64,000 nucleotides of DNA from Cupriavidus sp. D39 (GTDB lineage: Bacteria; Pseudomonadota; Gammaproteobacteria; Burkholderiales; Burkholderiaceae), in assembly GCF_026627925.1 (NCBI RefSeq), contig NZ_JAPNLE010000009.1, positions 3,658,001-3,722,000 on the forward strand. The letters run 5' to 3'. The notes under the pieces are model-generated. The model searched no databases. It saw only the letters and a list, made by a program, of their open reading frames with translations, and had not been told where the DNA came from. Positions 300-10,781 of this stretch are shown one piece after another; position 1 is the first letter of the stretch, and each line of letters starts with the position of its first letter. A program made the position numbers and the translations under genes.

Positions 300-702
300 C
301 ATGTGCGCCCAGCATGGGCGCACTCCTGTGGGTGCAAGTCCCACCGTAAGTTGATCACAGCGATCGAAGCGAAGCGCAACTGCGAAAGGGCGACCGATCG
401 TGGGGAGGAAGCGTGGAGCGAAGCTGCGAGCCGAGGAACACGAACCGGATAGAAGGCGGTGCCGACCAGGACGAGCGGGCATGAAACCGCGAAGTTCTCG
501 TGATCAAGGGGAGGCGGCGTAAATCCGGCGGTTGTGCAGCGAAGGAGTGCGTTCTTACCTGGGGAGATCTCGCCTCATGCCTGAAAGGGCGACGGCGTCG
601 AGCCGGAGCGAGAAGTCAGCAGAGGTCGAAGTAGTTGGGGGTAGCGCCGGCAAGGCTCGAATCCGCCGACGAAGGACCGAACGAGAGGGAGTGTTCGAAG
701 CC

Positions 703-1420
703 ATGTCGATACCGAAGGCATTGCGTCAGAAGCCCGCGCGAGCGGGGCGGGAGGAGTAGCGGGCGGTGAAGCCGGCCGTGAACCCGCCTGCGACGAAGCC
801 GGCGGTCCGCGGCGGGGACCGGAGGACACGGGGTCGGCGCTGCTGGCAGCGGCGCTGACGCGAGAGAACCTGAAGCAGGCGTTCAGGCGGGTCCGCCGCA
901 ACAAAGGCGCCGCTGGCGTGGATGGTCTGGATATTGATCAGACCGCCCGCTATCTGGTGTCGGCGTGGCCGGAGATCCGCCAGCAACTGCTCAAGGGGAC
1001 GTACCGGCCCAGTCCGGTACGGCGGGTAACGATTCCGAAGCCGGACGGAGGAGGCGAGCGCGAGCTCGGTATTCCGACGGTGACGGACCGGCTGATCCAG
1101 CAGGCGCTGTTGCAGGTGCTGCAGCCGATGCTGGACCCCACCTTCAGCGAGCACAGCTACGGCTTCCGGCCTGGGCGGCGTGCGCACGATGCGGTGTTAG
1201 CCGCGCAGTCGTACGTGCAGTCGGGGCGGCGAGTGGTGGTGGACGTGGATCTGGAGAAGTTCTTTGACCGGGTCAACCACGACATCCTGATTGACCGTCT
1301 ACAGAAGCGCATCGGGGACGCCGGGGTCATCCGGCTGATCCGGGCGTATCTGAACAGCGGGCTGATGGATGGCGGGGTAGTGCTGCAGCGGTACGAGGGC
1401 ACGCCGCAAGGCGGGCCGCT
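703..1420 (+). pseudogene. Intron reverse transcriptase/maturase, N-terminal part (copy A, frameshifted)
   Basis: This encodes RT domains 0-4 of a group II intron protein: NKGAAGVDG, the IPKPDGGGERELGIPT block, YGFRPGRRAHDA, VVDVDLEKFFDRVNHD and the TPQGGP motif. Translation from the ATG at 703 stops at 757-759 because one G is missing near 754 compared with copy B. The recombinase element then cuts the gene after TPQGGP at 1420. The protein would copy and splice the intron RNA if intact. The missing G lies in a short G run and could be a sequencing error; the insertion is certainly real. Confidence 0.85.
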
Positions 1421-3098
1421 TACGCCGCTTACAACGTTGCATACTTTTCACTCCGTCGTCTGAATCATTCGAGTTTTCGCTGTCAAAAGCCCCAGGCTGT
1501 GGGTCAACCCTGAACACAACGACGATTTCATCCTTGTGGATTTCGACGCGCTTGACCAGACCCAATACGATCCTGCGCTTTGTCTCAAGATCAATCGTGT
1601 CCAGTTTTTCGGTGACGGCGCCTGCAAATTCCTCGATCCGATTGATGACCAGAAACAGCTCGCTTTGCACCGCGCCTTGCTGCCTGGATTCAAGGATCTG
1701 CTGGTCAATCTGCTCAAGCCGATTCCTCAACTGCTGCATCTTCGGTTCGAAGTCGGACTTATCGAGGATGCCGTCCGCATAGCTATCGATCAGCCGGGAC
1801 TTTCCCTTCTCCAGCTGCAGCCGCTGCTTTTCAAGGTTGCTTGTGTCGAAGGCACTCTTCTCGTTGCGCTCCATCATATCCAGTCGACGCTCATATTCGC
1901 TCTTCAAGCGTTCTGGATGACTGAGCAATTCCACAACCTGCTGCCATACCAGCTCATCGAGCCTGTCTGTTCGTACCTGCAGATTGTCACAGATGCGGTG
2001 GCCACCGAAACGGTAGGCATCAGTCCCAACACAGCGGTAATAGGCGTAGTCCCGCTGATGCCCCTTAGCTGCAACCTTGCTCACCTTCTTGGCGTAATAG
2101 GCGTAATGGCACTCGCCGCATACCGTCAACCCTTGCAGCAGGCGTAGCGGTGCACTCTCGCGCCTCTGGCGCGCCAGCTTGCGGTTCTCGGCAAGCTGTT
2201 CCTGAGCCGCCTGGAACAGCCCCTCGCTCACGATGGCCGGCACCGGAATCTCGATCCAGTCCTGCGGTTCGGTTCGTGTTGTCGAGTACGGCTTTCTGGG
2301 CACGTCAGCACTGTGGCGCTGGGCGCGCACGCGTACCTGCAGGTGATCGCGCGACTGCGTCTTGCCGAACGCAGCTCGCCCCATGTACGCAGGATTGCGC
2401 AATATGCCCCACACCACACTACGGTCCCAGTATGGCTTGCCCGACGCTGTCACGGTACCCGACTCGGCAAGGCGGCGTACCACATCCCCTATGCTCAGGC
2501 GGTCCATCCCCACCCACTGGAAGATCGCCCGGACCGTTGCAGCCTGGGGCAGTTCGATAACGTACCGGGCCGGCGTTCCGTCGAGTTGCCGGCGAATGTA
2601 GCGGTAGCCGTAGGGCGCCCCGGACAGGACATTGACACTGCCGCGTTTTGCGCCGTGAAGCTTGCCACGACGGTGACGCTCGGCGATCTTCGCCCGTTCG
2701 TATTCTGCGATCATGCCCTGCATCTGCAATAGCAGCGACTCTTCCGGCGTCGTACCGATCGCGTGATTGAGGAAGACCACCTGGACACCGCAGGCGGAGA
2801 ACTCTTCCATCAGCAGCGCCTGGTGCGCATATTTGCGCGCCAGCCGGTCCGGTGACAGGATGTACAGCTGATCGATCGTACCGAGCGCGGCACAGTCCCT
2901 GAGGCGCTCCAATTGAGGCCTGATCAGCGTCGCACCGCTCACGCCAGCGTCAACGAAACACATGTCGTCGACGATCTGCGCGCCGTCAGCTGAAATACGC
3001 TCCTTCAGTGCAGCGATCTGGCTTTCAATGGTGCCGCGTTTGTTTTGCTGTTCGGAGGATACCCGCGCGTAGAGTGCAACCATCGCAGCTTTGCTCAT
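1299..3098 (-). CDS. Large serine recombinase (copy A)
   Basis: 599 residues. Residues 1-150 form the resolvase catalytic domain with YARVSSEQQ (catalytic Ser14) and SPDRLARK. Then come the recombinase domain (GAPYGYRYI), a zinc-ribbon with four Cys (CGEC, YYRC, ICDN), and a coiled coil rich in Glu, Lys and Leu at about 425-490. It should catalyse conservative integration and excision of its own 2-kb element. The ORF has no stop inside the element: after ...RCKRR it runs 33 residues into the antisense strand of the RT gene before stopping at 1299. The start overlaps the small ORF (ATGA). The first 557 residues are identical to copy B. Confidence 0.9.
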   Translation of the reverse strand: MSKAAMVALYARVSSEQQNKRGTIESQIAALKERISADGAQIVDDMCFVDAGVSGATLIRPQLERLRDCAALGTIDQLYILSPDRLARKYAHQALLMEEFSACGVQVVFLNHAIGTTPEESLLLQMQGMIAEYERAKIAERHRRGKLHGAKRGSVNVLSGAPYGYRYIRRQLDGTPARYVIELPQAATVRAIFQWVGMDRLSIGDVVRRLAESGTVTASGKPYWDRSVVWGILRNPAYMGRAAFGKTQSRDHLQVRVRAQRHSADVPRKPYSTTRTEPQDWIEIPVPAIVSEGLFQAAQEQLAENRKLARQRRESAPLRLLQGLTVCGECHYAYYAKKVSKVAAKGHQRDYAYYRCVGTDAYRFGGHRICDNLQVRTDRLDELVWQQVVELLSHPERLKSEYERRLDMMERNEKSAFDTSNLEKQRLQLEKGKSRLIDSYADGILDKSDFEPKMQQLRNRLEQIDQQILESRQQGAVQSELFLVINRIEEFAGAVTEKLDTIDLETKRRIVLGLVKRVEIHKDEIVVVFRVDPQPGAFDSENSNDSDDGVKSMQRCKRRKRPALRRALVPLQHYPAIHQPAVQIRPDQPDDPGVPDALL

Positions 3099-3428
3099 CG
3101 TCTACCTCGCTTGATGGTCGCTTGCTTGGACTCTGCAGACCACGTAGCGGACGGCTGTGCCGTCGCGCGTGCTTCGATCGGACTAATCTGCTCGTAAGCC
3201 TTTTGCAACTGCTCTTGGGCATAGCGGTTCGGCTCGAAAGCCAGACGCACGCTCCACTTTTTACGTCTTCGGGTCATCGCTGCACCTGCCTGTCAGCGGG
3301 AGCGACCGTCTCAAGGACAAGATCCACATTGACGTCAGCACAGCTTCTGGACCAGGGCGCCAGACACTCCCTCGAAATGCGCAGGCCCAATTTTATCCGG
3401 CAGTTTGCTCTATTGTTGGTGGCGTTAT
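1421..3428 (-). mobile_element. 2,008-bp serine recombinase element, copy A (reverse orientation)
   Basis: The boundaries follow from comparing the two interrupted introns. The left end is TACGCCGCTTACAAC and the right end is GTTGGTGGCGTTAT, and joining the outer sequences restores ...CCGCTGTCACCG, encoding G-G-P-L-S-P of the RT. The element holds only two genes, a 60-residue ORF and a large serine recombinase, with about 150 bp ahead of them. There is no target-site duplication, as expected for conservative serine recombination. The second copy (6919-8926) has the same length and the opposite orientation. Confidence 0.9.
3095..3277 (-). CDS. 60-residue basic protein of the recombinase element (copy A)
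   Basis: A small, Arg/Lys-rich protein starting MTRRRKKWSVRLAFEP. Its last codons overlap the recombinase start by 4 bp, so the two are probably translationally coupled. I do not recognise a family. The size, charge and coupling would suit a recombination directionality factor or other accessory DNA-binding protein, but that is inference only. The same ORF is present unchanged in copy B, which supports it being a real gene. Confidence 0.6.
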   Translation of the reverse strand: MTRRRKKWSVRLAFEPNRYAQEQLQKAYEQISPIEARATAQPSATWSAESKQATIKRGRR

Positions 3429-4080
3429 GTCACCGCTGCTGGCTAACGTACTGCTCGATGAGGTGGACAAGGCGTTGGAGCGTCGAGGTCATTGCTTCGT
3501 GCGCTATGCCGATGATGCGAACGTGTACGTGCGCAGTCGGCGGGCGGGCGAGCGGGTGATGGCGCTATTGCGGCGCTTGTACGGCAGCCTGCGCCTGAAG
3601 GTCAACGAGGCAAAGAGCGCGGTGGCGAGCGCGTTTGGCCGCAAGTTCCTCGGCTACAGCTTCTGGGTGGCCGCAGGGGGAGTGGTCAAGCGCAAAGTGG
3701 CAGTTAAGCCGCTGCTGACGTTCAAGCAACGCATCCGCGAACTGACTCGCCGCTCAGGCGGGCGGAGTCTGCAGGCAGTCGTGGATCGGGTGAGGCCATA
3801 TGTTCTGGGATGGAAGGCCTACTTCCGGCTGGCGCAAACGCCCCAGGTCTGGCGCGAGCTGGACAAGTGGATGCGCCACCGGCTGAGGGCCATCCAGCTC
3901 AAGCACTGGCGCCGTGGTCGGGTCATTTACCGAGAGTTGCGTGCGCTGGGTGCTACAGCGGATGCCGCCAGGCAAGCAGCGGCGAGTAGCCGGTGCTGGT
4001 GGCGCAACAGCGGCGACACGCTGAACCGGGTCCTGACCATCGCCTACTTCGATCAGTTGGGCATGCCCCGTCTCACTTAA
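3429..4080 (+). pseudogene. Intron reverse transcriptase/maturase, C-terminal part (copy A)
   Basis: This resumes the RT after the element: ...LSPLLANVLLDEV, the YADD catalytic box (FVRYADDANVYV), the GYSFW region, and the maturase (X) domain ending GMPRLT. It carries the catalytic aspartates of the polymerase but has no start of its own apart from a chance ATG formed at the element junction (3427-3429). With the 5' part it would make a protein of about 456 residues. Confidence 0.85.
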
Positions 4081-4094
4081 CCTCAACCTCTCGA

Positions 4095-4157
4095 ACCGCC
4101 CGGTGCGGACCCGCATGCCGGGTGGTGTGGCAGGGGCGCAGCCAGTGGGCTGCCCCT
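4095..4157 (+). other. Group II intron domains V and VI (copy A)
   Basis: Domain V: stem ACCGCCCGG (4095-4103) with CCGGGTGGT (4118-4126), inner TGCG/CGCA helix, a four-base loop and a two-base bulge on the 3' side, which is the catalytic hairpin architecture. Domain VI follows as AGGGGC (4132-4137) with GCCCCT (4152-4157). The same folds recur at about 9595-9658 in copy B. The RNA core therefore looks intact although the maturase gene is split. Confidence 0.65.
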
Positions 4158-4213
4158 ATGCCGATTGGCGCCGCCATCCGGGAGCGTGTCAGTCTTACAC
4201 CGACATTCGCGCC

Positions 4214-4234
4214 GCATTGTAAGCACTACAATGC
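4214..4234. promoter_or_regulatory. Perfect inverted repeat upstream of the response regulator
   Basis: GCATTGTA-agcac-TACAATGC has two 8-bp arms and a 5-bp spacer. It ends 52 bp before the start of the NarL/FixJ-type regulator. The size and symmetry suit a dimeric LuxR-type regulator site, possibly for autoregulation. Confidence 0.45.
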
Positions 4235-4286
4235 ATTAGCCCGGCCGCTCCTGAGAGCTGGGGCATCCATGCCCAGGGAGAATTCC

Positions 4287-4919
4287 ATGATTCGCGTTTT
4301 GATCGCCGACGATCACCAGATCGTGCGCGCCGGTCTGCGCCAGTTCATTGCCGACGAGCCGGATATCCGGGTGGAAGGGGAAGCTGCCAGCGGCGACGAA
4401 GTCATGACGCGGCTGCGCGAGCTCGAGTTCGATGTGGTGGTGCTCGATATCTCGATGCCTGACCGCAACGGCATCGACGTGCTCAAGCTGCTGCGCCAGC
4501 GCCATCCCGACCTGCCGGTGCTGATCCTCTCCACCTACCCGGAAGAGCAGTACGCCATCAACCTGATCCGCGCGGGCGCTTCCGGCTACCTGACCAAGGA
4601 AAGCGCACCGGACGATCTCGTCAAGGCCATCCGCACCGTGGCCCAGGGCCGACGCTATGTCAGCGCAACCGTGGCGGACCTGCTCATCGGCGGGCTGGAC
4701 AAGCCCACCAACCAGCCGCTGCACCAGACCTTGTCCAAGCGCGAGTTCCAGATATTCTGCAAGCTCTCGCGCGGGCAGTCGGTCTCGGTAATTGCCGAGG
4801 AGTTGTTCCTGAGCGTCAAGACGGTCAGCACCTATCGCTCGCGCATCCTGGAAAAGATGGGCATGAAGACCAATGCCGACCTGACCTACTACGCGATCAA
4901 GAACGGCCTGGTGGAGTAG
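4287..4919 (+). CDS. NarL/FixJ (LuxR)-family response regulator
   Basis: 210 residues. The receiver domain comes first, with the acidic pair in IADDHQ, phospho-acceptor Asp in VVVLDISMPD (about residue 54) and Lys in YLTKES. The C-terminal LuxR-type helix-turn-helix reads LSKREFQIFCKL...SVKTVSTYRSRILEKM. It should be phosphorylated by a sensor kinase not present here and bind DNA as a dimer. The ATG at 4287 is preceded by AGGGAGAA; upstream in-frame codons run into the intron end and are not credible. The closest known relatives by appearance are GacA/UvrY/RqpR-type regulators. It lies between the two introns, with a receiver-only gene next to it. Confidence 0.9.
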   Translation: MIRVLIADDHQIVRAGLRQFIADEPDIRVEGEAASGDEVMTRLRELEFDVVVLDISMPDRNGIDVLKLLRQRHPDLPVLILSTYPEEQYAINLIRAGASGYLTKESAPDDLVKAIRTVAQGRRYVSATVADLLIGGLDKPTNQPLHQTLSKREFQIFCKLSRGQSVSVIAEELFLSVKTVSTYRSRILEKMGMKTNADLTYYAIKNGLVE

Positions 4920-5028
4920 GCGCAGCCAAGGCAAAGCGCATTACCAGGCATTCTGCCGCGTTTGCCTGACGCTGCTGTAGGACGGACGCCGATAGTCCGT
5001 CCCTATACTCTGTTGCTAGCATGGAATC

Positions 5029-5505
5029 ATGTTGGATCAAGCTGCGGCCCCTTCGTATCGCGCGCTGCGGGTCCTGCTAATCGAGGACTCAGCGGTACTG
5101 CGGGGTATGTTGCTTGAATACCTGAACGCTTTTCCGTTTATCGAAGTCGTGGATTGGGCGGATACCGAAAGCTCGGCGCTGCGCCTCTACGAGGCGGGCA
5201 AGTACGAGGTCGTCATCGTCGACCTGCAGTTGCGGCAAGGCAACGGAATCAATGTACTGCGCGCCTTGCAGAAGACCAGGGTGTCGGGCATCCGCATCGT
5301 GTACACCAATCATGCCCAGGTGCCTACATACCGGCGGCAGTGTGCCGAGGCCGGCGCGGACTATTTCTTTGACAAGTCGCTCGAGCTCGAGCAGGTGTTC
5401 CGGGTGATCGAGGAGTACGCGCAGGCAGGGGCTGAATCCGTATTGAGTGCGTATCGAGTACGTATCGAGTACGTCAAATACTTCGAATACTTCGAATACG
5501 TATAG
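5029..5505 (+). CDS. Single-domain response regulator (receiver only) with a repetitive tail
   Basis: 158 residues. One receiver domain: acidic residues in LLIEDSAV, phospho-acceptor Asp in VVIVDLQLRQGNG, Thr in VYTNH, Lys in FFDKSLE. There is no output domain, so it probably acts through protein contacts, like CheY or Spo0F, perhaps with the adjacent NarL-type regulator 109 bp upstream. The last 20 or so residues are encoded by tandem duplications (GTATCGAGTAC twice, TTCGAATAC twice) giving an aromatic and acidic tail (KYFEYFEYV). The tail is outside the normal receiver fold and may be recent. Confidence 0.85.
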   Translation: MLDQAAAPSYRALRVLLIEDSAVLRGMLLEYLNAFPFIEVVDWADTESSALRLYEAGKYEVVIVDLQLRQGNGINVLRALQKTRVSGIRIVYTNHAQVPTYRRQCAEAGADYFFDKSLELEQVFRVIEEYAQAGAESVLSAYRVRIEYVKYFEYFEYV

Positions 5506-5574
5506 ACCCGTATCAGTAGTACCAGCCGTTCCAATCGCGGCCATGCCGCGTCAACCTAGAGCAAGGAGAGAGTC

Positions 5575-5718
5575 ATGAGAAAGCTGATGGCGCTGTGTGC
5601 CCTGGCAGGTGTGGTCCTGGTGACCGGTTGCAACACGATGGCCGGTGCCGGCAAGGACATCGAGAAGGGCGGCGAGAAGGTGCAAGGCGCCGCCGAGAGC
5701 ACCAAGCAGAAGATGTAA
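5575..5718 (+). CDS. Entericidin A/B-family small lipoprotein
   Basis: 47 residues. A lipoprotein signal peptide with lipobox LVTGC (Cys19) is followed by the entericidin pattern NTMAGAGKDIEKGGEKVQ. Such proteins are small membrane lipoproteins made under stress; in E. coli they form an antidote/toxin pair, but many proteobacteria carry a single copy of unknown role. SD AAGGAGAG lies just upstream of the ATG at 5575. A strong terminator follows 49 bp downstream, and intron copy B lies directly after that terminator. Confidence 0.85.
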   Translation: MRKLMALCALAGVVLVTGCNTMAGAGKDIEKGGEKVQGAAESTKQKM

Positions 5719-5766
5719 GGTACCAACCGGCGTGCCGTGTGCATGGCAGCCGGACAAGAGGAATGG

Positions 5767-5797
5767 AAAAGGGGCTCCGCGGAGCCCTTTTCCATTT
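5767..5797 (+). terminator. Rho-independent terminator after the entericidin gene
   Basis: AAAAGGGGCTCC-GC-GGAGCCCTTTT forms a long hairpin followed by T-rich sequence. Intron copy B begins at 5802, just behind it, in the same relation to its terminator as copy A. Confidence 0.85.
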
Positions 5798-6201
5798 TCA
5801 TGTGCGCCCAGCATGGGCGCACTCCTGTGGGTGCAAGTCCCACCGTAAGTTGATCACAGCGATCGAAGCGAAGCGCAACTGCGAAAGGGCGACCGATCGT
5901 GGGGAGGAAGCGTGGAGCGAAGCTGCGAGCCGAGGAACACGAACCGGATAGAAGGCGGTGCCGACCAGGACGAGCGGGCATGAAACCGCGAAGTTCTCGT
6001 GATCAAGGGGAGGCGGCGTAAATCCGGCGGTTGTGCAGCGAAGGAGTGCGTTCTTACCTGGGGAGATCTCGCCTCATGCCTGAAAGGGCGACGGCGTCGA
6101 GCCGGAGCGAGAAGTCAGCAGAGGTCGAAGTAGTTGGGGGTAGCGCCGGCAAGGCTCGAATCCGCCGACGAAGGACCGAACGAGAGGGAGTGTTCGAAGC
6201 C

Positions 6202-6918
6202 ATGTCGATACCGAAGGCATTGCGTCAGAAGCCCGCGCGAGCGGGGCGGGAGGGAGTAGCGGGCGGTGAAGCCGGCCGTGAACCCGCCTGCGACGAAGCC
6301 GGCGGTCCGCGGCGGGGACCGGAGGACACGGGGTCGGCGCTGCTGGCAGCGGCGCTGACGCGAGAGAACCTGAAGCAGGCGTTCAGGCGGGTCCGCCGCA
6401 ACAAAGGCGCCGCTGGCGTGGATGGTCTGGATATTGATCAGACCGCCCGCTATCTGGTGTCGGCGTGGCCGGAGATCCGCCAGCAACTGCTCAAGGGGAC
6501 GTACCGGCCCAGTCCGGTACGGCGGGTAACGATTCCGAAGCCGGACGGAGGAGGCGAGCGCGAGCTCGGTATTCCGACGGTGACGGACCGGCTGATCCAG
6601 CAGGCGCTGTTGCAGGTGCTGCAGCCGATGCTGGACCCCACCTTCAGCGAGCACAGCTACGGCTTCCGGCCTGGGCGGCGTGCGCACGATGCGGTGTTAG
6701 CCGCGCAGTCGTACGTGCAGTCGGGGCGGCGAGTGGTGGTGGACGTGGATCTGGAGAAGTTCTTTGACCGGGTCAACCACGACATCCTGATTGACCGTCT
6801 ACAGAAGCGCATCGGGGACGCCGGGGTCATCCGGCTGATCCGGGCGTATCTGAACAGCGGGCTGATGGATGGCGGGGTAGTGCTGCAGCGGTACGAGGGC
6901 ACGCCGCAAGGCGGGCCG
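6202..6918 (+). pseudogene. Intron reverse transcriptase/maturase, N-terminal part (copy B)
   Basis: Begins MSIPKALRQKPARAG and covers RT domains 0-4 up to TPQGGP in an unbroken frame of 239 codons. It then reads into the element as ITPPTIEQTAG and stops at 6952-6954. Unlike copy A there is no frameshift. In-frame ATGs further upstream (6031, 6076) lie in the structured intron RNA and are less likely starts. The remaining half is at 8927-9580. Confidence 0.85.
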
Positions 6919-8926
6919 ATAACGCCACCAACAATAGAGCAAACTGCCGGATAAAATTGGGCCTGCGCATTTCGAGGGAGTGTCTGGCGCCCTGGTCCAG
7001 AAGCTGTGCTGACGTCAATGTGGATCTTGTCCTTGAGACGGTCGCTCCCGCTGACAGGCAGGTGCAGCGATGACCCGAAGACGTAAAAAGTGGAGCGTGC
7101 GTCTGGCTTTCGAGCCGAACCGCTATGCCCAAGAGCAGTTGCAAAAGGCTTACGAGCAGATTAGTCCGATCGAAGCACGCGCGACGGCACAGCCGTCCGC
7201 TACGTGGTCTGCAGAGTCCAAGCAAGCGACCATCAAGCGAGGTAGACGATGAGCAAAGCTGCGATGGTTGCACTCTACGCGCGGGTATCCTCCGAACAGC
7301 AAAACAAACGCGGCACCATTGAAAGCCAGATCGCTGCACTGAAGGAGCGTATTTCAGCTGACGGCGCGCAGATCGTCGACGACATGTGTTTCGTTGACGC
7401 TGGCGTGAGCGGTGCGACGCTGATCAGGCCTCAATTGGAGCGCCTCAGGGACTGTGCCGCGCTCGGTACGATCGATCAGCTGTACATCCTGTCACCGGAC
7501 CGGCTGGCGCGCAAATATGCGCACCAGGCGCTGCTGATGGAAGAGTTCTCCGCCTGCGGTGTCCAGGTGGTCTTCCTCAATCACGCGATCGGTACGACGC
7601 CGGAAGAGTCGCTGCTATTGCAGATGCAGGGCATGATCGCAGAATACGAACGGGCGAAGATCGCCGAGCGTCACCGTCGTGGCAAGCTTCACGGCGCAAA
7701 ACGCGGCAGTGTCAATGTCCTGTCCGGGGCGCCCTACGGCTACCGCTACATTCGCCGGCAACTCGACGGAACGCCGGCCCGGTACGTTATCGAACTGCCC
7801 CAGGCTGCAACGGTCCGGGCGATCTTCCAGTGGGTGGGGATGGACCGCCTGAGCATAGGGGATGTGGTACGCCGCCTTGCCGAGTCGGGTACCGTGACAG
7901 CGTCGGGCAAGCCATACTGGGACCGTAGTGTGGTGTGGGGCATATTGCGCAATCCTGCGTACATGGGGCGAGCTGCGTTCGGCAAGACGCAGTCGCGCGA
8001 TCACCTGCAGGTACGCGTGCGCGCCCAGCGCCACAGTGCTGACGTGCCCAGAAAGCCGTACTCGACAACACGAACCGAACCGCAGGACTGGATCGAGATT
8101 CCGGTGCCGGCCATCGTGAGCGAGGGGCTGTTCCAGGCGGCTCAGGAACAGCTTGCCGAGAACCGCAAGCTGGCGCGCCAGAGGCGCGAGAGTGCACCGC
8201 TACGCCTGCTGCAAGGGTTGACGGTATGCGGCGAGTGCCATTACGCCTATTACGCCAAGAAGGTGAGCAAGGTTGCAGCTAAGGGGCATCAGCGGGACTA
8301 CGCCTATTACCGCTGTGTTGGGACTGATGCCTACCGTTTCGGTGGCCACCGCATCTGTGACAATCTGCAGGTACGAACAGACAGGCTCGATGAGCTGGTA
8401 TGGCAGCAGGTTGTGGAATTGCTCAGTCATCCAGAACGCTTGAAGAGCGAATATGAGCGTCGACTGGATATGATGGAGCGCAACGAGAAGAGTGCCTTCG
8501 ACACAAGCAACCTTGAAAAGCAGCGGCTGCAGCTGGAGAAGGGAAAGTCCCGGCTGATCGATAGCTATGCGGACGGCATCCTCGATAAGTCCGACTTCGA
8601 ACCGAAGATGCAGCAGTTGAGGAATCGGCTTGAGCAGATTGACCAGCAGATCCTTGAATCCAGGCAGCAAGGCGCGGTGCAAAGCGAGCTGTTTCTGGTC
8701 ATCAATCGGATCGAGGAATTTGCAGGCGCCGTCACCGAAAAACTGGACACGATTGATCTTGAGACAAAGCGCAGGATCGTATTGGGTCTGGTCAAGCGCG
8801 TCGAAATCCACAAGGATGAAATCGTCGTTGTGTTCAGGGTTGACCCACAGCCTGGGGCTTTTGACAGCGAAAACTCGAATGATTCAGACGACGGAGTGAA
8901 AAGTATGCAACGTTGTAAGCGGCGTA
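6919..8926 (+). mobile_element. 2,008-bp serine recombinase element, copy B (forward orientation)
   Basis: Left end ATAACGCCACCAACAATAG, right end CAACGTTGTAAGCGGCGTA. The flanks are GGGCCG and CTGTCACCG, so the element lies just before the CT of the target, while copy A lies just after the same CT in the other orientation. The two insertions thus differ by the two-base core, as expected when a serine recombinase cuts with a 2-bp stagger. Gene content and length equal copy A. Confidence 0.9.
7070..7252 (+). CDS. 60-residue basic protein of the recombinase element (copy B)
   Basis: Identical to the small ORF of copy A. Very basic N-terminus (MTRRRKKW), a possible amphipathic helix around NRYAQEQLQKAYEQI and a basic end (KRGRR). 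It ends inside the recombinase start codon region (overlap ATGA at 7249-7252). It occupies the space just inside the left end. No family recognised; a DNA-binding accessory or directionality role is inference from size, charge and position. Confidence 0.6.
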   Translation: MTRRRKKWSVRLAFEPNRYAQEQLQKAYEQISPIEARATAQPSATWSAESKQATIKRGRR

Positions 8927-8946
8927 CTGTCACCGCTGCTGGCTAA
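7249..8946 (+). CDS. Large serine recombinase (copy B)
   Basis: 565 residues with the same domain order as copy A: catalytic resolvase domain with Ser14 in YARVS, recombinase DNA-binding domain, zinc ribbon with four Cys and a long coiled coil near the C-terminus. This is the architecture of large serine integrases and of Tn4451 TnpX-type transposases. The element contributes codons only up to ...RCKRR; the last residues (TVTAAG) and the TAA come from the RT gene read in another frame. The protein C-terminus therefore depends on where and how the element sits. Confidence 0.9.
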   Translation: MSKAAMVALYARVSSEQQNKRGTIESQIAALKERISADGAQIVDDMCFVDAGVSGATLIRPQLERLRDCAALGTIDQLYILSPDRLARKYAHQALLMEEFSACGVQVVFLNHAIGTTPEESLLLQMQGMIAEYERAKIAERHRRGKLHGAKRGSVNVLSGAPYGYRYIRRQLDGTPARYVIELPQAATVRAIFQWVGMDRLSIGDVVRRLAESGTVTASGKPYWDRSVVWGILRNPAYMGRAAFGKTQSRDHLQVRVRAQRHSADVPRKPYSTTRTEPQDWIEIPVPAIVSEGLFQAAQEQLAENRKLARQRRESAPLRLLQGLTVCGECHYAYYAKKVSKVAAKGHQRDYAYYRCVGTDAYRFGGHRICDNLQVRTDRLDELVWQQVVELLSHPERLKSEYERRLDMMERNEKSAFDTSNLEKQRLQLEKGKSRLIDSYADGILDKSDFEPKMQQLRNRLEQIDQQILESRQQGAVQSELFLVINRIEEFAGAVTEKLDTIDLETKRRIVLGLVKRVEIHKDEIVVVFRVDPQPGAFDSENSNDSDDGVKSMQRCKRRTVTAAG

Positions 8947-9580
8947 CGTACTGCTCGATGAGGTGGACAAGGCGTTGGAGCGTCGAGGTCATTGCTTCGT
9001 GCGCTATGCCGATGATGCGAACGTGTACGTGCGCAGTCGGCGGGCGGGCGAGCGAGTGATGGCGCTATTGCGGCGCTTGTACGGCAGCCTGCGCCTGAAG
9101 GTCAACGAGGCAAAGAGCGCGGTGGCGAGCGCGTTTGGCCGCAAGTTCCTCGGCTACAGCTTCTGGGTGGCCGCAGGGGGAGTGGTCAAGCGCAAAGTGG
9201 CAGTTAAGCCGCTGCTGACGTTCAAGCAACGCATCCGCGAACTGACTCGCCGCTCAGGCGGGCGGAGTCTGCAGGCAGTCGTGGATCGGGTGAGGCCATA
9301 TGTTCTGGGATGGAAGGCCTACTTCCGGCTGGCGCAAACGCCCCAGGTCTGGCGCGAGCTGGACAAGTGGATGCGCCACCGGCTGAGGGCCATCCAGCTC
9401 AAGCACTGGCGCCGTGGTCGGGTCATTTACCGAGAGTTGCGTGCGCTGGGTGCTACAGCGGATGCCGCCAGGCAAGCAGCGGCGAGTAGCCGGTGCTGGT
9501 GGCGCAACAGCGGCGACACGCTGAACCGGGTCCTGACCATCGCCTACTTCGATCAGTTGGGCATGCCCCGTCTCACTTAA
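8927..9580 (+). pseudogene. Intron reverse transcriptase/maturase, C-terminal part (copy B)
   Basis: Starts with the CTG of L-S-P-L-L, contains the YADD polymerase box and the maturase domain, and ends with TAA at 9578-9580. One base differs from copy A (A at 9054, G at 3555), which is synonymous within the Arg-Ala-Gly-Glu-Arg-Val segment. Joined to 6202-6918 it gives 456 residues. Confidence 0.85.
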
Positions 9581-9740
9581 CCTCAACCTCTCGAACCGCC
9601 CGGTGCGGACCCGCATGCCGGGTGGTGTGGCAGGGGCGCAGCCAGTGGGCTGCCCCCTATGCCGATTTTTGGGGCCGAACAAGACAGCTGCGATTCAAGG
9701 CCAATTCCCTCGTGGACCGGTGCTGCCTGGTGGCCCCAGT

Positions 9741-9780
9741 CGAAGCATATTCGGCTACAATCGTAGCCATTTATGCTTCG
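9741..9780. promoter_or_regulatory. Nested palindrome covering the MNT-domain gene start
   Basis: Two inverted repeats share one centre: CGAAGCAT (9741-9748) with ATGCTTCG (9773-9780), and GGCTAC (9753-9758) with GTAGCC (9763-9768). The ATG of the regulator gene (9773) is inside the right outer arm and no Shine-Dalgarno is visible. It could be the operator of the HTH antitoxin or an RNA hairpin that hides the start codon. Confidence 0.55.
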
Positions 9781-10372
9781 ATCCATTTCCGAGACTCTTT
9801 TCAGCGACTACCGTCGCCGCGTGCTTGGCCTCCTGCTTCTGCGTCCGGAGGAGGCGTACCACGTGCGCGAAATCGCACGTTTGACCGGCACCACCGCGGG
9901 AACCCTTCACAAGGAGCTGAGCAAGCTTGCTGAAGCGGGCGTGCTCTCCCGTGAACGGCAGGGCAATCAGGTGGTTTATCGTGCCAACCGAGCCTGTCCA
10001 ATTTTCGAGGAGCTGGCTAGCATCATGCGCAAAACATCCGGCATTCGAGATGTGCTGCTTTTGGCACTTGAGGCCTGCTCGGAGCGGATTGATGTTGCGT
10101 TCGTGTTTGGTTCTGTGGCTCGTGCTCAGGAGACGGCGAACAGTGACGTGGATGTGATGGTGATCGGTACCGTCAGTTTTGGCGAAGTGGTAAGGCAGTT
10201 CTATGAGACCCAAGCCATCCTAGGCCGCGAAATCAATCCCAAGGTGCTGACGGCGGCAGAGTGGCGGGACGGCATTTTGAACCAAGCGCCGTTTCTGCTG
10301 GAAGTCCAAGCAAAGCCCAAGATATTTCTGATCGGAAATAACGATGACCTTGCAGAACTTGCTGGGAATTAG
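9773..10372 (+). CDS. HTH-MNT nucleotidyltransferase-domain protein (antitoxin type)
   Basis: 199 residues. The N-terminal winged helix-turn-helix (VREIARLTGTTAGTLHKELSK...VLSRERQGNQVVYRANR) is followed by a minimal nucleotidyltransferase domain with GSVARAQE and the DVDVMV acidic pair (about residues 112-126). In MNT/HEPN toxin-antitoxin systems the MNT protein neutralises the HEPN RNase, in characterised cases by adding AMP to it. Here the fused HTH suggests it also represses its own promoter. It overlaps the HEPN gene by 29 bp. Intron copy B ends 106 bp upstream. Confidence 0.8.
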   Translation: MLRSISETLFSDYRRRVLGLLLLRPEEAYHVREIARLTGTTAGTLHKELSKLAEAGVLSRERQGNQVVYRANRACPIFEELASIMRKTSGIRDVLLLALEACSERIDVAFVFGSVARAQETANSDVDVMVIGTVSFGEVVRQFYETQAILGREINPKVLTAAEWRDGILNQAPFLLEVQAKPKIFLIGNNDDLAELAGN

Positions 10373-10781
10373 CCTAGACGCGGTACAGCCGAGTCGCGAC
10401 CAAGTGACAAGGTTGCTGGCGGCCGCCGAGCGGAATCTCGCGGACGCGCAGCTGCACGGCTTGAGCAGTGAGAACCGGTTTGATGCTGCGTATAAAGCCA
10501 TCATGCAATTGGCGATGCTGGCGTTGCAGGCAAATGGATATCGAACGTTGACCAGCCGACCGGGCCATCACCAGACCGCGATCCAGACGCTGCCGGCGAC
10601 TATCGGCATGTCCAAGGATCGCATGATCGTGCTGGACGCACTGCGCAAGCAGCGCAATTTGTCTGACTACTCGGGCGATCTGGTGCCTGAATCGACTTTA
10701 AGTGAGTGTATGTCGAGCGCGTTCAGTTTGCTGGCCGACGTAAGAGCTTGGCTTCAGGCAAACAAACCGGAGCTTCTTTGA
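10344..10781 (+). CDS. HEPN-domain protein (probable toxin)
   Basis: 145 residues, mostly helical. A charged motif RKQRNLSDYSGD (about residues 104-115) matches the R-x4-6-[H/Y]-type active-site region of HEPN proteins of the RNxxDY class. HEPN toxins cleave RNA; pairing with an MNT protein in one operon is a known toxin-antitoxin type. The start at 10344 overlaps the upstream gene. No canonical His follows the Arg-Asn, so RNase activity is inferred from family and context. Confidence 0.75.
   Translation: MTLQNLLGISLDAVQPSRDQVTRLLAAAERNLADAQLHGLSSENRFDAAYKAIMQLAMLALQANGYRTLTSRPGHHQTAIQTLPATIGMSKDRMIVLDALRKQRNLSDYSGDLVPESTLSECMSSAFSLLADVRAWLQANKPELL

Follow-up and report, generated by a model that had tools for sequence, protein, structure and literature searches.

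Large serine recombinases (LSRs) mostly integrate phages and other large elements. The TP901-1 and A118 integrases are among them, Bxb1 and phiC31 are further serine integrases, and the Ccr and XisF recombinases serve large elements or ones excised during development. Spliceosomal introns presumably descend from group II introns, and what restrains the latter in bacteria is not settled. Small elements aimed at other mobile elements have also been described: the title of a reference within PMC11187229 has the IS1111-type elements IS4321 and IS5075 target the terminal repeats of the Tn21 family, and a passage of the same paper gives IS1111-type elements a DEDD transposase guided by a seekRNA. 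Members of the IS607 family, according to a section of PMC6188088, have the size of an insertion sequence (IS), use serine catalysis without target duplication, and possess an N-terminal DNA-binding domain and no terminal repeats. Here we describe a 2,008-bp element, consisting of an LSR gene and an overlapping open reading frame (ORF) of about 60 amino acids, which interrupts the reverse transcriptase (RT) genes of two group II introns in a window of 64,000 nt (the whole stretch of DNA that was analysed) from contig NZ_JAPNLE010000009.1 of Cupriavidus sp. D39, a genome of 7.74 Mb in 11 contigs. With a probability of roughly 87%, we regard it as a minimal LSR element with conservative site-specific integration at the RT codons for GTPQGG-x-[LIV]-SPLLAN. 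It looks like a parasite of other genetic parasites.

The two copies of the element, at 1421-3428 and 6919-8926, form an inverted repeat; each is 2,008 nt long, they are 100% complementary and 3,490 nt lie between them. The introns that flank them, here called A and B, are direct repeats (99%, 99% and 96% identity, free of gaps, over the 300-nt stretches compared). Each copy splits the RT gene of one of these two near-identical introns within the codons for GTPQGGP-L/SP. In copy A the sequence reads GGGCCG-CT, followed by the inverted element ending in GGCGTT-AT and then by GTCACC, while in copy B GGGCCG is followed by AT-AACGCC at the start of the element, and GGCGTA at its end by CT-GTCACC. 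The target CT thus precedes the insert in copy A and follows it in copy B. The first-pass annotation of the window had proposed one element at the same dinucleotide of two introns in opposite orientations, located in the codons of the TPQGGP-LSP motif, before the CT in copy B and, inverted, after it in copy A, and the junction sequences agree with it on each of these points. The features of the two introns are as follows.

303..4165 (ends approximate), + strand: group II intron A, split by the element (RF02001 at 384-554, RF01998 at 572-677; ends placed by eye in the comparison of 11 copies)
918..1420, + strand: 5' part of the intron A RT gene, up to GTPQGGP-L (ORF 918-1463; RVT_1 on the identical part of copy B)
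1419..1420, + strand: target-type core CT at the left junction of copy A (empty copies carry CT at the same place)
1421..3428, - strand: element copy A, running against the RT gene (inverted repeat with 6919-8926, 100%)
1299..3098, - strand: LSR ORF of copy A, 599 aa, which leaves the element and enters the RT gene antisense
3095..3277, - strand: 60-aa partner ORF of copy A (mirror of 7070-7252)
3427..3428, + strand: element-type core AT at the right junction of copy A (junction sequence)
3429..4080, + strand: 3' part of the intron A RT/maturase gene, from the SPLLAN block (ORF 3427-4080; GIIM and RVT_1 on the near-identical part of copy B)
5802..9666 (ends approximate), + strand: group II intron B, split by the element (RF02001 at 5883-6053, RF01998 at 6071-6176; intron comparison)
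6031..6918, + strand: 5' part of the intron B RT gene, up to GTPQGGP (ORF; PF00078 RVT_1, E 8.6e-19)
6919..8926, + strand: element copy B, in the orientation of the RT gene, the AT core being its first two bases (absent from 8 of 11 copies of the same intron)
6921..6945, + strand: imperfect left terminal repeat of copy B, AACGCC.. (agrees by eye with the reverse complement of 8902-8926 at 16 of 25 positions; a repeat is also present in relatives)
7070..7252, + strand: 60-aa partner ORF of copy B with the motif FEPNR-x(7)-L-x(2)-AYE, overlapping the LSR start (related ORF in 74 of 98 loci)
7249..8946, + strand: large serine recombinase of copy B, 565-aa ORF ending in a TAA from RT codons (PF00239, PF07508, PF13408)
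8902..8926, + strand: right terminal repeat of copy B (..GGCGTA), which doubles as coding sequence for the LSR C-terminus (sequence, relatives)
8927..8928, + strand: target-type core CT at the right junction of copy B (junction sequence; empty copies)
8929..9580, + strand: 3' part of the intron B RT/maturase gene (PF08388 GIIM and PF00078 on 8963-9580)

That the hosts of the element are group II introns is indicated by PF00078, PF08388, RF02001 and RF01998, all of which matched; the Rfam matches are to group-II-D1D4-3 and group-II-D1D4-1. No Rfam model for domain V matched intron A, even at E<=0.1, and none of the tools used on the window introns named the class IIC, which the first-pass annotation had given. 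Introns of the window type adjoin terminator-like stems, with a T-run in 9 of the 11 copies (by eye), and a position directly after such stems presumably fits class IIC. Relative to copy B, the RT gene of intron A also carries a frameshift, caused by the loss of 1 bp near 752.

The recombinase shows the domain order Resolvase, Recombinase, Zn ribbon (PF00239, 116 bits; PF07508, 71 bits; PF13408, 41 bits), and its YARVSS motif, which contains what we take to be the catalytic serine, is kept in 18 of 18 aligned relatives. Its best NCBIfam matches are recombinases of the staphylococcal cassette chromosome (SCC), CcrA/B/C, and XisF. Membership in these families was rejected, the scores lying well below the curated NCBIfam cut-offs for CcrB (127 of 900 bits) and XisF (111 of 375 bits), and IS607 was rejected likewise (31.8 of 110 bits). 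In all 39 loci compared, 3 of which are duplicates, the LSR frame has no stop inside the element, and the stop lies in the target; in copy B it is a TAA arising from the RT codons for Leu-Ala-Asn, and the C-terminus is encoded by the terminal repeat of the element. The element is an insertion sequence in the broad sense, being short and multicopy (six full copies), with terminal repeats (in relatives) and only two ORFs. Two cyanobacterial relatives, L091 (Tolypothrix) and L096 (Nostoc; L-numbers are the labels of the loci compared), are about 2.7 kb long owing to additional repetitive sequence that separates the left end from the LSR gene.

The second ORF means that the description of the element as cargo-free in the first-pass annotation was not quite right. 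The 60-aa ORF matched no family in Pfam or NCBIfam, and its best PHROG matches have E values of about 0.05. Among the 98 loci with enough sequence (2 further loci were too short), a partner ORF with the pattern FEPNR..AYE is located just upstream of the LSR gene in 74 and not in 24, some of which carry a diverged form of it. In an alignment of 36 rows, F14 and R18 do not vary, nor does the start, and E15 and Y28 hardly do. In a separate branch (L049, L147, L149, L150 and L152) a longer ORF replaces the partner ORF; four of the five records annotate it as a ribbon-helix-helix protein and the remaining one as hypothetical. The small ORF may serve movement of the element, and it is a candidate directionality factor.

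A search of the genome with the element gave eight matches: six full copies (five over bases 1-2008 and one over 3-2008), a 250-bp remnant, and one weak match of 43 bp that was set aside. All six full copies are located between GTPQGG-x and SP of group II-type RT genes (GTPQGG-x-[LIV]-SP), and the remnant lies at the same RT motif. L001, L002 and L004 occupy the intron type of the window, while L003 and L005 occupy a second RT family, with GGGGTG-AT-CAGTCC in its empty copies (L171-L173). L006 lies in yet another RT gene, whose closest match is 82% identical and of which no empty copy was found in the comparison. The window intron type is present in 11 copies, 8 of which are empty at the exact site and read GGGCCG-CT-GTCACC, and comparison with these indicates that nothing was duplicated or lost upon insertion, except for the AT at one junction. 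The three occupied introns of this type represent three different haplotypes of single-nucleotide polymorphisms and insertions/deletions, and in its variable columns the haplotype of copy B is also present as an empty intron (L014/L031), so that at least this insertion postdates the spread of the intron. Together with the other copies at the same codons, the differing haplotypes rule out a single duplicated and inverted locus without specificity, and no full copy was found at an unrelated sequence; these were the two outcomes that the first-pass annotation had named as contrary to its interpretation, which is supported. Two further observations concern these introns. At L003/L174/L177 (C9, about 3602144-3604100) the N-terminal RT part is parted from the element by an additional insert of about 2 kb that looks transposase-like by eye, and five copies of another intron with near-identical target DNA (GGCGGGCCG-CT-GTCGCCG; L020-L024) are all empty.

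Read in the orientation of the element, the cores at the 5' and 3' ends are AT/CT in L001, L003 and L004, AT/AG in L002, AT/AT in L005 and AC/AT in L006. If a donor with an AT core met a target with an NT core in a 2-nt staggered exchange, and the unlike strands segregated without repair, one junction would inherit the core of the donor and the other that of the target. Four copies with a known target core (L001, L002, L004 and L005) fit this pattern. L006 fits provided that its target read GT, like that of the related RT gene L154; L003, which has CT at one end despite an AT target, would fit a donor circle that had left a CT site. In the RT frame the core covers the first two bases of a hydrophobic codon, and an exchanged first base therefore still yields L, I, V or M. 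A script for cores and orientation was run on 104 loci, of which 39 had both RT halves on the same strand within its distance limits and 36 were left after deduplication; the distance limit left out loci such as L002, L003 and L004. Relative to the RT gene, 19 of these 36 insertions have the same orientation and 17 the opposite one, and the mostly palindromic AT core would explain the absence of a preference; a title among the references of PMC3783163 reports that the orientation of Bxb1 integration depends on the central dinucleotide. The cores at the two ends are identical in 21 of 36 insertions, share the second base in 30 of 36, and have T as second base at both ends in 28 of 36.

Relatives of the element in other bacteria were collected by a scan of GTDB contigs, in which the best 80 of 216 confirmed places were kept; several loci share one genome, and as the sampling began from an RT-targeting query its target frequencies should not be taken as a census. 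According to the record titles, the loci come from Paraburkholderia, Caballeronia, Pseudomonas, Candidatus Fukatsuia, Chloroflexi, Planctomycetota, cyanobacteria, Acetobacteraceae, a metagenome-assembled genome (MAG) of Flavobacteriales and others, though MAG titles may be wrong. The LSR of the Pseudomonas putida pWW53 element has a frameshift in its record; a Stutzerimonas copy (L048) is intact, and Paraburkholderia fungorum has a further copy (L053). Hidden Markov models (HMMs) of the two RT halves found RT sequence at both ends of 38 of the 80 loci, at one end of 28 and at neither end of 14. Broken down by LSR identity, the numbers for both, one and neither are 23, 12 and 4 at >=60% (n=39), 13, 16 and 4 at 50-59% (n=33), and 2, 0 and 6 below 50% (n=8). 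In the top band three of the HMM-negative loci (L057, L080 and L128) show the RT motif at one end by eye, bringing the loci in RT genes to 38 of 39 sampled (35 by HMM, 3 by eye). These relatives carry the insertion at the same RT codons and in both orientations, in support of the interpretation in the first-pass annotation that a conserved RT motif is the target. In L061, L083, L090 and L120 RT sequence is confined to one end although the other has flank too; the cut contig of L115 contains no RT half, and its near-identical relative L105 has one. An automated pattern for the end motifs was unsuitable for most loci, whose ends were read by eye.

The RT HMMs were cut at the motif, so that alignments ending at the last column are partly built in, and an unsplit RT was used as a control. 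Against it, 47 of 51 N-side alignments end within residues 289-291 and 32 of 38 C-side alignments begin at residue 285 or 286, the motif GTPQGGPL being residues 281-288. The small overlap between the two sides arises because the ends of the element resemble the motif ((G)GV and [ILV]TP; by eye). In loci with both ends the distance from RT to RT is 1,979-2,035 bp, which gives an element of about 2 kb. Conservation of the target (attB; 46 N-side and 55 C-side sequences) is found mainly at first and second codon positions, with most wobble positions weak, so that most of what is available for the recombinase to rely on is fixed by the RT protein. Intron RNA was detected with Rfam in 16 of the 18 loci scanned (all except L098 and L101), and in 9 of the 18 on both sides of the element, which suggests that the ribozyme frame is often kept. 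The matches comprise six different D1-D4 models, a range of targets that the first-pass annotation had not seen, just as it had not seen the transposase genes described below or the conservation of the partner ORF. Among the 38 loci with RT sequence at both ends, three of Candidatus Fukatsuia symbiotica (L076, L078 and L081) and L122 have the same RT half twice (N/N or C/C). This is the expected outcome of recombination between element copies, and copies of this kind may rearrange chromosomes.

Targets other than RT genes were found among relatives with about 38-51% identity. Transposase genes of the IS5 type hold L050, L118, L126 and L141 (NCBIfam IS5_3 on pieces of L050 and L126, 52 bits each), L113 is in an IS3 transposase gene (NCBIfam IS3, 72 bits; Pfam rve), L152 is in a Tn3 transposase gene (NCBIfam Tn3, 45 bits), and L151 is probably in an IS1182 transposase gene (20.7 bits, a weak match); these scores are of fragments and lie below the full-length NCBIfam cut-offs. 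L116 is in a HARE-HTH gene. The assignment of targets leaves out L114, L121, L124, L127, L129, L140 and L142-L146. In the LSR tree, built from 95 of 100 proteins (five shorter than 440 aa were excluded) with SH-aLRT support only, the four IS5 members form one starred group, joined by L142, and the IS3, Tn3 and IS1182 cases are each single rows; the RT label in this tree means an RT hit within 900 bp, or was set by hand for L057, L080 and L136. The LSR occurs in 6 of 299 genomes of the family of the window (E<=1e-150) and in 1 of 399 genomes drawn from the order (E<=1e-100), that one being the source genome itself, and by these strict cut-offs its presence is patchy. A protein search scored 8,000 candidates and gave at least 7,996 relatives at E<=0.001; among the 120 matches listed, many are on contigs of about 2 kb, as expected of a repeated 2-kb element. 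Immediately 3' of intron B, the stretch 9773-10781 of the window holds the gene of a protein that gave helix-turn-helix and nucleotidyltransferase matches and, after it, a 145-aa ORF for which no Pfam family scored above its cut-off.

A model for the element can be built on its anatomy, the reuse of a single site, the two orientations, the empty sites, the core pattern and the breadth of its occurrence, all of which are observed. The mobile unit would be the LSR gene with its partner of about 60 aa, passing through a circle whose attP is formed by the joined terminal repeats. The coding sequence of the RT block GTPQGG-x-[LIV]-SPLLAN would serve as attB, at which the LSR would make 2-nt staggered cuts spanning positions one and two (NT) of the hydrophobic codon. 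AT is the commonest core, and as this is palindromic both orientations could form. With its RT gene split between GTPQGG and the later RT blocks, the intron would lose its own RT, which intact sister introns could supply in trans, and the site would remain available because selection on the RT protein preserves it. Excision of the element, and a role of the small ORF in its movement, would be further steps.

Several observations weigh against this explanation. In 15 of 36 unique insertions the two ends carry different cores, in 6 of 36 the second base differs as well (L046, L060, L103, L106, L119 and L123), and L060 (AG/CT) has no common core base at all. A passage of PMC3783163 states that strand exchange is efficient only with parallel alignment of the central dinucleotides, so that such mismatch tolerance of these LSRs would be unusual. 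For the 2-bp staggered recombination without duplication put forward in the first-pass annotation, the 8 empty copies among 11 show no duplication, and the cores call for caution. Furthermore, 14 of the 80 loci are without an RT half by HMM, and L066 (Paraburkholderia phenazinium, 3172-5178), with 92% LSR identity, is off-target in a gene that reads like pyruvate phosphate dikinase (named by eye), with the cores GT and AT.

A shared position could also come about by descent, if the LSR were cargo of the intron and the composite retrotransposed as a whole. The Fukatsuia copies, which have intron sequence in common with one another on both sides, fit composite retrotransposition or repeated insertion alike. 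As the main route, however, intron cargo was rejected and is highly improbable: both orientations occur within one intron type, several RT families are occupied in one genome, the occupied introns differ in haplotype and one of these haplotypes is also empty, and relatives are located in transposase genes. It is slightly less probable still that the element helps the host cell by silencing introns through splitting of the RT, excision being able to restore it, in the manner of developmentally excised elements such as skin and fdxN. The position of the core on a codon that tolerates first-base exchange, and a conserved small partner ORF that could direct excision, would suit such a role, but the patchy presence (6 of 299 genomes in the family and 0 of 398 in the order beyond the source genome), a multicopy spread that looks selfish, and the lack of any excision scar, with CT in 8 of 8 empty introns of the window type, argue against it. 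We give equally little credence to the possibility that the element is the remnant of a prophage or larger integrative element of which only the integrase was kept. Wolbachia phage WO does encode an LSR related to this one (41-45% identity), next to which lies a similar small ORF; however, the ends of the element are exact, its size is about 2 kb in the loci with both ends, no phage or conjugation genes were seen between these ends, and none of the 429 phage records with a match reaches 60% identity.

Conservative integration at RT codons by a minimal LSR element thus remains our preferred explanation. A broader proposal, to which we give somewhat less than even odds, is that this unnamed two-gene LSR family, spread over several phyla, consists of specialised hyperparasites whose attB is formed by conserved codons of mobile-element enzymes, mainly group II RTs, with transposases of IS5, IS3, Tn3 and probably IS1182 in side branches. 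Excision with either core would leave a working enzyme, and the C-terminus supplied by the target could feed back on recombinase activity. If true, the element would be a natural enemy of introns that breaks the RT at codons the introns cannot change, and a clean case of nested parasitism. The family would also form a large natural panel of recombinases whose attachment (att) sites can be read from genomes, and would offer a candidate directionality factor, an apparent tolerance of core mismatches and switches between mobile-element targets.

A described system with a related arrangement is the recombinase module of Wolbachia phage WO, in which a related small ORF overlaps the start of the LSR gene. 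In L182 this ORF (1308-1583) encodes a hypothetical protein with the motif YEPDE..L..AYE and is a candidate directionality factor for phage WO. Unlike the element, phage WO is a full phage, and its sr1WO type is placed in a magnesium chelatase gene, not an RT gene, in a portion of PMC9203015. The IS4321/IS5075 elements, as far as a title describes them, resemble the element in being small and aimed at a conserved site of another mobile element, and differ from it in that its enzyme is an LSR and its target a protein-coding catalytic motif. With IS607, as partially described, it has in common the IS size, a recombinase of the serine type and the absence of target duplication, whereas its terminal repeats set it apart. 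In the literature, the main text of the survey of LSR targets by Durrant and colleagues (PMC10083194) contains neither 'group II' nor 'reverse transcriptase', and no paper describing LSR elements that target RT or transposase codons was recognised among the open-access papers searched, judged by titles and the starts of abstracts. The domain order of the recombinase is that of the TP901-1 and A118 integrases, which are also the nearest solved chains, and its pattern would fit a 2-bp core without target duplication, the unlike cores in 15 of 36 insertions aside. What is different is that a recombinase and a small ORF make up the whole element, that it is multicopy, and that it uses conserved codons of the enzymes of other mobile elements. 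While LSRs, their core chemistry and small elements that hunt mobile elements were already known, an LSR aimed at RT and transposase codons, as predicted from these genomes, appears to be new.

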